Shown piece by piece: positions 19,489 to 22,100 of a stretch of DNA of 64,000 nt. The stretch is from Sphingobacteriales bacterium (GTDB taxonomy: Bacteria; Bacteroidota; Bacteroidia; Sphingobacteriales; Sphingobacteriaceae): positions 186,001 to 250,000 of the forward strand of contig JAQBOG010000033.1 of the NCBI GenBank assembly GCA_028288165.1, written 5' to 3'. A program made the position numbers and the translations under genes. A model generated the notes under the pieces. It saw only the letters and a program-made list of their open reading frames with translations. It did not search any database and was not told the origin of the DNA. Numbering within the stretch: position 1 is the stretch's first letter; each line of letters starts with the position of its first letter.

Positions 19489-20388
19489 TTAATTTAAAAC
19501 AGTTAGTGATAATGGCTTAATAGTTACGTGTAGTTCAGAAGCCATATTTTCTGGTTCTCCGTCTAAATGAACTGGCGCCGCAGATTCTCGGATTATCTTT
19601 ATTTCTTTCCCCTTAATTATTTCAACAAATTTTGATTTATGAGCTGTTTTATTAAACATCTGAATTCCCATAAGGGGAAAAGAATACATAGGAAAGGGTT
19701 TAATAATACAAACATCTAACAAACCATCTTTCAGAGATGCAAACGGAGAAATATGTGCATTATTGCCAAATTGAGATGAATTTGCAATACTAATCATAAA
19801 CGCCTCCCTCTCATATAATATTCCGTCTATATAAATACGGTAATGTTGCGACTGATAATTAGATAACTCTTGAAATGTAGTTTTAACATAACCTGTTAAT
19901 CCCCTGGAAATACTTTGCGCAAACATTGCACTTATATGTGCATCAAAACCAACGCCAGCTATATTGAAAAATTTCTTCCCGTTTACAGACCCTGAATCTA
20001 TTTGTTCTGTGTTTAAGTTATTAAGCTTAACTAATGCTTTCTTTTCATTTAAGGGTATACCTAATGATCTTGCTAGTCCATTGCCAGAGCCATATGGTAT
20101 TATACCCATTATAGAATTTGTACCTACAAGAGAGGACGCAACTTCATTAATTGTACCATCGCCCCCTACAGCAACTATTATTTCTATCCCATTATTTACC
20201 GCTGTTACAGCAAGTTCGGAAGCGTGCCCAATTCTTTCTGTGAAAACATAAGTTGAATGAAATTTGTTTGTATCTAAATATTTATCAGCCAGTACTGGAA
20301 AATTAATTTTATTTTTTCCACCGGAAATGGGATTAATGATGAATAAAATTCTATTTTTCAAAAAGGCTAGGCTCAAAATATAAGCCAC
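19489..20388 (-). CDS. Diacylglycerol/YegS-type lipid kinase
   Basis: A lipid kinase of the diacylglycerol kinase catalytic family, about 290-299 residues. Signature motifs are FIINPISGGKNK at the N-terminus, VGGDGTINEVASSL and PYGSGNGLARSLGIP, which bind ATP. The ORF track begins with GTG at 20388; a TTG at 20361 (MKNRILFIINP) gives the length and start more usual for this family, and there is no ATG in that region. The cellular substrate is not shown by the sequence. It is divergent from metK. Confidence 0.88.
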   Translation of the reverse strand: MAYILSLAFLKNRILFIINPISGGKNKINFPVLADKYLDTNKFHSTYVFTERIGHASELAVTAVNNGIEIIVAVGGDGTINEVASSLVGTNSIMGIIPYGSGNGLARSLGIPLNEKKALVKLNNLNTEQIDSGSVNGKKFFNIAGVGFDAHISAMFAQSISRGLTGYVKTTFQELSNYQSQHYRIYIDGILYEREAFMISIANSSQFGNNAHISPFASLKDGLLDVCIIKPFPMYSFPLMGIQMFNKTAHKSKFVEIIKGKEIKIIRESAAPVHLDGEPENMASELHVTIKPLSLTVLN

Positions 20389-20427
20389 TAAAATACTGCT
20401 TAATTTTCCTTATTAAAAAAATTATAA

Positions 20428-20435
20428 TATTTTTG
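20428..20435 (+). promoter_or_regulatory. Candidate -7 box (TATTTTTG) for metK
   Basis: TATTTTTG matches TAnnTTTG and lies 13 bp before the first base of the SAM-II-like aptamer. Transcription starting just after it would place the aptamer at the very 5' end of a leader of about 125 nt, which is the expected arrangement. Confidence 0.5.
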
Positions 20436-20448
20436 CGCCTATAAAAAA

Positions 20449-20503
20449 GTGGATCGATTTGCGTTGATTGCAACCACGTAAAAAAAAGTGCTAAAACAAA
20501 CTG
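20449..20503 (+). promoter_or_regulatory. SAM-II-type riboswitch aptamer upstream of metK
   Basis: The leader contains GTGG...GATTT-(6)-ATTGCAA-CCAC...-GCTAAA. This matches the known SAM-II (metA/SAM-alpha) sequence GAUUU-(6)-AUUGCAA-(16)-GCUAAA with identical spacing in both intervals. The P1 arms GTGG and CCAC pair and differ from the reference by compensatory change. The conserved U-rich and GCUAAA segments are the ones that contact S-adenosylmethionine in solved SAM-II structures. It precedes S-adenosylmethionine synthetase, so feedback control of translation or transcription is expected. The aptamer ends about 64 nt before the ATG; the expression platform is not obvious. Confidence 0.82.
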
Positions 20504-20566
20504 ATTTTTACCAATAGTAATCGCTCACTCCTTCTTTGTTGGTATTATATTTAAAATTCAAGCCTT

Positions 20567-21829
20567 ATGCCGTATTTATTTACATCGGAGTCTGTTTCTG
20601 AAGGACATCCTGATAAAGTTGCAGACCAGATATCTGATGCATTGATTGATAATTTTCTAGCCTGGGATCCGGATTCAAAAGTAGCTTGTGAAACATTGGT
20701 TACAACCGGATTAGCTGTTTTAGCTGGAGAAGTAAAATCCCAAACCTATTTAGACGTTCAGAAAATTGCCCGCGATGTCATTCGAAAAATAGGTTATACC
20801 AAATCAGAATATATGTTTGAGGCTGATTCATGCGGTGTAATTTCTGCCATACACGAACAATCTGCTGATATAAACCAAGGGGTGGATCGTGTTGAAAAAG
20901 AAGACCAAGGAGCTGGTGACCAAGGAATGATGTTTGGTTATGCAACTAACGAAACAGACAACTATATGCCTTTGGCACTTGATCTTGCACATAAATTATT
21001 AATTGAACTTGCTGCTCTTCGCCGTGAATGTGCAGAGATTAATTATTTACGTCCAGATGCTAAATCACAAGTTACCATTGAATATAGTGATGAGCATGTA
21101 CCTGTTCGGATTGATTCAATTGTGGTTTCTACTCAGCATGATGATTTCGATACAGAGAAAGCCATGCAACAAAAGATTCAGGAGGATATTATTTCTATTT
21201 TGATACCGCGGGTAAAAGCTCAGCTAAAACCTGAACTGCAAGCCTTATTTAATGATGAAATTAAATATCATATAAATCCAACAGGAAAATTCGTAATTGG
21301 CGGGCCTCATGGTGATACTGGATTAACCGGAAGAAAGATAATTGTTGATACATATGGTGGAAAAGGTGCCCACGGTGGGGGTGCTTTTTCAGGTAAAGAC
21401 CCATCTAAGGTAGACCGATCTGCCGCCTATGCAACCCGTCATATTGCAAAAAATTTAGTCGCTTCCGGTGTTGCTAGCGAAGTTTTAGTACAGGTATCCT
21501 ATGCGATTGGTGTTAAAGACCCTATGGGAATTTATGTAAATACCTATGGTAGCGGTGTTGGGAAAGTTGGATTACAAGATGGTGAAATAGCTCAAAAGGT
21601 TTCTGACCTATTTGACATGACTCCCTATGGCATTGAAACACGTTTGAAATTAAGAAATCCGATATATTCTGAAACTGCTGCTTATGGACATATGGGCCGA
21701 AAAAGTGAAACAGTGACTAAAATATTTACTGGAGCTACTGGAGAAAAGAAAGAAGTTGAAGTAGAATTGTTTACTTGGGAAAAATTGGATTATGTGGATG
21801 CTATAAAAACTGCATTTAATATTAAGTAA
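20567..21829 (+). CDS. metK: S-adenosylmethionine synthetase
   Basis: Makes S-adenosylmethionine from methionine and ATP in the cytosol. The 420 residues begin [21 protein letters not shown], the ATP-binding N-terminal motif. The methionine/metal region is [14 protein letters not shown], and the active-site loop and P-loop-like segment are [20 protein letters not shown] and [19 protein letters not shown]. Length is typical. It is preceded by a SAM-II-type aptamer and followed by a strong terminator, so it appears to be a single-gene unit controlled by its product. Confidence 0.98.
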
Positions 21830-21986: not shown

Positions 21987-22100
21987 GCTAGGTTTTGCGT
22001 TAAGGATTGAAGTGGAAATCCTTTTTGCCCTCTCTTCGAAAGGCTTAGAGCGGCAGGGGGCAAAAAGATTGGAACGAAAAGCCTGCCCGAACGCCCAAAT
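21987..22100 (+). repeat. Dispersed ~105-bp element, copy A
   Basis: Left arm GCTAGGTTTTGCGTTAAGGA then TTGAAGTGGAAATCC; a central hairpin (CTTTTTGCCC...GGGCAAAAAG); right arm GATTGGAACG, AAAGCCTGCC and CGAACGCCCAAAT. The same arms recur in three other intergenic sites of this window with different hairpins. This copy points the same way as metK and the following barrel gene and lies in the 447-bp gap between them. It contains no ORF. Confidence 0.75.

Follow-up and report, generated by a model that had tools for sequence, protein, structure and literature searches.

The window, by which we mean the whole 64-kb stretch of DNA that was analysed, holds the gene of methionine adenosyltransferase (metK), its leader RNA with a promoter box in front, and a further RNA behind the gene (Table 1). 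In a cmscan of the whole window the leader was matched by RF01726 (SAM-II long loop), and the match is far above chance level because its 58.0 bits exceed the gathering score of 44 and its E value is 1.5e-8. Searched alone, the leader again gave 58.0 bits and covered the model at full length (positions 1-60). This is the single RF01726 match in the source genome, whose assembly has a completeness of 68.6%. The preliminary description had proposed RF00521 (SAM_alpha) as the model for the check; it finds the isolated leader at the same place with 19.7 bits, which is below its cut-off of 36, and RF00521 was rejected as the class of the leader, the fitting model being RF01726, which was described from Bacteroidetes. 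SAM-V was also rejected, its covariance model giving no match to the leader alone even at E up to 10.

Table 1 Features of the metK leader and its surroundings in the 64-kb window.
Feature	Position	Strand	Basis or remark
TATTTTTG	20428..20435	+	Match to the Bacteroidota -7 box TAnnTTTG
SAM-II (long loop) aptamer, RF01726	20443..20504	+	58.0 bits vs gathering 44
P1 5' strand, GUGG	20449..20452	+	Partner 20474-20477
L1, GAUUU	20456..20460	+	By homology, third strand in the triplex that binds SAM
P2 5' strand: UUG (P2a), A, UUGC (P2b)	20464..20471	+	
P1 3' strand, CCAC	20474..20477	+	Partner 20449-20452
P2 3' strand: GC-(U20492 bulge)-AA, then CAA 20497-20499	20490..20499	+	Partner of CAA: UUG 20464-20466
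Anti-aptamer segment	20500..20522	+	Fold energy and comparative support
metK, methionine adenosyltransferase, 420 aa	20567..21829	+	TIGR01034 equivalog, 511.1 bits vs cut-off 309.4
Flavo-1 RNA (RF01705)	21992..22092	+	58.6 bits vs cut-off 42, directly downstream of metK

The core GAUUU-(6)-AUUGCAA-(16)-GCUAAA, which the earlier reader had picked out, stands in the window with exactly these spacings: GATTT (20456-20460) is followed after 6 nt by ATTGCAA (20467-20473) and, after 16 nt, by GCTAAA (20490-20495). The P2 strands of RF01726 are found as well, including the bulged U. Anatomy and promoter were assessed on 97 dereplicated leaders, which are related by descent and so not independent. ATTGCAA..GCTAAA is present in 85/97, and the L1 word reads GATTTG in 76/97 and AATTTG in 18/97. 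Both the P1 helix and the P2 pseudoknot covary as in RF01726: the second pair of P1 is U-A in 67/97 and A-U in 30/97 leaders, a two-sided change, and in P2a, the three pairs beyond P2b, 195 of 291 pairs can form, whereas 1000 permutations gave 161 on average and 177 at most. At L205-L219, from genomes of the same class, the linker between P1 and P2 carries at least one extra inserted hairpin, by which the RF01726 score falls near the cut-off.

Promoters and translation starts of Bacteroidota differ from those of model bacteria. The box directly upstream of the aptamer conforms to TAnnTTTG, the -7 consensus of the main sigma factor in this phylum (PMC7366714). In 91/97 leaders a strict TAnnTTTG lies no more than 40 nt upstream of P1, so that the RNA should begin just before the aptamer, and TAnnTTTG-like boxes lie at a median of 12 nt before P1; in the window, the expected transcription start is 20441, give or take a few nt. 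The Rfam match, the conserved core, the covariation of P1 and P2a and the promoter box just before the aptamer support class membership, hence the SAM-II class originally assigned to the metK leader is confirmed by sequence comparison in the form of a predicted RF01726 riboswitch, the aptamer being one more member of a catalogued class.

Compared with the published RF01726 (PMC2864571), the window shows the same core, P1/P2 pseudoknot layout, A-rich linker and Bacteroidota host, and matches it at full length; the aptamer itself does not differ, and the anti-aptamer segment of the window lies downstream, outside the model. The alphaproteobacterial RF00521 RNAs of metA/metX resemble the window in conserved core and fold, whereas the window leader stays below their cut-off, precedes metK instead of metA/metX and has no ribosome-binding site in P2. 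SAM-V is, like the window RNA, a SAM-binding H-type pseudoknot with a pocket of the same kind (predicted for the window by homology); it acts translationally, with the ribosome-binding site at its own 3' end (PMC6061858), whereas the window has no SAM-V match. SAM-I (S-box, RF00162) is also a SAM sensor, but its fold is unrelated and its site in the same genome is another one, before metH.

Identification of the downstream ORF as metK bears out the statement that the riboswitch precedes the gene making its ligand, and the RNA sits in the sense 5' leader of a SAM-metabolism gene, as expected for RF01726. Control of metK in a Bacteroidota genome had been called a useful case. It is instead the rule, because RF01726 is matched in 288/301 genomes of the taxonomic family to which the window belongs, in 223 of them above cut-off, and a metK match was found at 140/140 loci retrieved via the riboswitch (L001-L031, L112-L220). 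Among genomes sampled across the phylum, 64/396 carry RF01726, and it stands before metK in Tenacibaculum, Flavobacterium, Winogradskyella, Chryseobacterium, Capnocytophaga, Polaribacter, Bacteroidaceae and other Bacteroidota. As early as 2005 SAM-II had been observed in the Bacteroides group (PMC1273637), and the RF01726 motif was reported from Bacteroidetes as a riboswitch in 2010 (Weinberg et al. 2010, PMC2864571 Table 1). The aptamer and its metK context are ordinary, and the unfamiliar detail is limited to a second RNA fold just past the aptamer, which would be in competition with the sensor.

The fold of 20466-20530 has an energy of -11.1 kcal/mol (z -3.30), and 0/200 shuffles were as good. 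Its outer helix pairs GAUUGC (20466-20471) with GUAAUC (20517-20522) and holds a G-U pair; further inside, the linker GUAAAAA (20478-20484) pairs with UUUUUAC (20505-20511), and AGU (20487-20489) with ACU (20500-20502). Because the 5' strand of P2 and the linker are used in both, the modelled anti-aptamer fold and the SAM-bound pseudoknot are mutually exclusive, and the former would block P2 and hence the SAM pocket. When the 160-nt leader was folded, the best structure consisted of P1 and the linker hairpin, and was overall no stabler than shuffles (z 0.13). TTTTTAC is retained in 15/17 leaders of the genus, yet in several members the anti-aptamer hairpin gains little or nothing in stability over shuffled sequence. 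A conserved role was rejected for the ACCAA..TTGGT hairpin, which, judged by eye, was seen in the window's leader alone among the listed relatives. In the texts consulted, we found no description of an anti-aptamer platform past the RF01726 aptamer.

Comparative support for the competing fold was sought in 80 dereplicated metK leaders, with shuffles that preserve dinucleotide content, and in another 24 dereplicated leaders, taken from the genomes sampled across the phylum; this second set is only partly independent, as some of its families are common to the first. The prediction was fixed before the second set was searched. The ligand-free region is stabler than shuffles in both (z -1.17, se 0.15, and z -1.56, se 0.38, respectively), and in the first set the duplex of linker plus GCUAAA with the next 40 nt is better than in dinucleotide shuffles (mean z -0.94, se 0.13); since the leaders are related by descent, these standard errors are optimistic. 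The most over-represented spacer 6-mer of the first set is GCAATC, the reverse complement of the near-invariant GATTGC, found in 19 leaders where 1.4 were expected and where none of 200 shuffles gave more than 6. It recurs in 3 leaders of the second set (0.3 expected), the top 6-mer of which is CTTTAG, the complement of CTAAAG.

In some lineages the spacer complements the leader's own L1, namely GATTTGAC with GTCAAATC, GATTTGCG with CGCAAATC and GATTTGATT with AATCAAATC. Pairing a spacer with its own L1 instead of a swapped one lengthens the match by 0.26 nt (se 0.08), and in eight leaders the match is at least 8 nt long. This complement is a putative lineage-specific alternative to the GCAATC element. 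An exact own-L1 complement is seen in the spacers of L071, L081, L084, L098, L105, L141 and L033 (e.g. GTCAAATC vs GATTTGAC). Pairing of the 5' strand of P1 with the spacer showed no clear excess in the leader sets. Also rejected was a further structure, in the aptamer-occupied state, that would join the downstream strand to the metK start, since it was no better than shuffles (post-aptamer part to ATG+40, z 0.01 and -0.19).

Starting from the class membership, the gene context, the promoter box and the comparative support for the competing fold, we consider it likely that the RF01726 riboswitch gives SAM feedback control of the SAM synthetase, with a competing anti-aptamer hairpin. Transcription would begin shortly upstream of the aptamer. 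At high SAM levels, binding of the ligand, predicted by homology, would lock the P1/P2 pseudoknot and the triplex; at low levels, 20500-20522 would instead pair with GAUUGC, the A-rich linker and the GCUAAA region to give the anti-aptamer hairpin. SAM binding would exclude this hairpin and lower metK output, an OFF direction that we infer because metK makes the ligand. As for the output step, our best guess is that the SAM-bound form would expose a G-poor, pyrimidine-rich, unstructured stretch, leading to a Rho-like transcription stop or to poor ribosome use. Among the first 50 nt of the spacer, C is frequent (0.24) and G rare (0.11), and over a matched span before the ATG the values are C 0.23 and G 0.11 with the riboswitch vs 0.17 and 0.14 in 39 metK leaders without GCTAAA; such a spacer would, we guess, suit Rho loading. 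As a generalization, which we put forward tentatively and with some doubt, SAM-II of Bacteroidota might be a terminator-free platform with a lineage-varying anti-aptamer strand directed against GAUUGC, the own L1 or linker plus GCUAAA, and with output via Rho or by some other non-canonical route. What makes the case useful is a testable proposal for riboswitch action in Bacteroidota, in which two folds are mutually exclusive and there is neither a terminator nor a Shine-Dalgarno sequence to hide.

The switch could also work while the anti-aptamer pairing arises from A-/U-rich composition and descent as a side effect, the actual output step being invisible in the sequence. Pairing is cheap between a poly-A linker and a U-rich spacer, and the genus members without excess stability fit such an origin, but the shuffles keep dinucleotide content and GCAATC, CTTTAG and the own-L1 complements are not A/U tracts, which makes this rather unlikely. 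Still less probable is that the anti-aptamer hairpin, the only recurrent structure, is a weak terminator, SAM binding favouring read-through and so turning metK ON. U makes up ~50-60% of positions +5 to +12 after the hairpin and in certain lineages (L095, L174, L068) forms runs of 6-8 U, which would fit this opposite logic; SAM would, however, raise its own synthesis, contrary to the usual logic of metK control, and the window continues after the hairpin with GCUCACUCC, which has no U-run. Transcription attenuation by an intrinsic terminator formed on SAM binding, a mechanism put forward for many SAM-II leaders of proteobacteria, whose aptamers are often followed by putative terminators (PMC1273637; PMC2258182), is very unlikely here: no terminator-like site was found in 20380-21000 of the window, and the post-aptamer part alone is no more structured than shuffles in the 80 leaders (z -0.24, se 0.12) or in the 24 further ones (z -0.12). 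Finally, direct occlusion, in which bound SAM hides a ribosome-binding site in or beside the pseudoknot as in the solved metX SAM-II and SAM-V (PMC6061858; PMC10907184), is rejected as highly improbable because the start codon is too distant from the aptamer, GCUAAA ending 71 nt before the metK ATG (median 74.5, minimum 52 over 170 loci); moreover, P2 overlaps with nothing that resembles a Shine-Dalgarno sequence, and in the 80 leaders the start region is structured to a lower degree than its shuffles (z +0.43).

A second SAM sensor is present in the source genome, where SAM-I (63.7 bits) precedes metH on contig C3 (L225), ~199 kb upstream of the metK leader. SAM-I was found in 59/61 genomes of the family. 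A survey of 2007 had recorded no species with both SAM-I and SAM-II (PMC2258182); with present genomes their coexistence is routine in the family, and that statement is overturned. The two unrelated sensors appear to divide the pathway, SAM-I serving methionine synthesis and SAM-II the synthesis of SAM. In several Bacteroidota (L051, L065, L072, L089, L091, L095, L096, L099 and L109), SAM-I lies near the metK locus itself, mostly on the opposite strand, and at L036, L037 and L060, SAM-I/IV (RF01725) replaces SAM-II before metK at a similar distance from the gene. The Flavo-1 RNA that lies behind metK in the window also follows metK in L038, L051 and L065.
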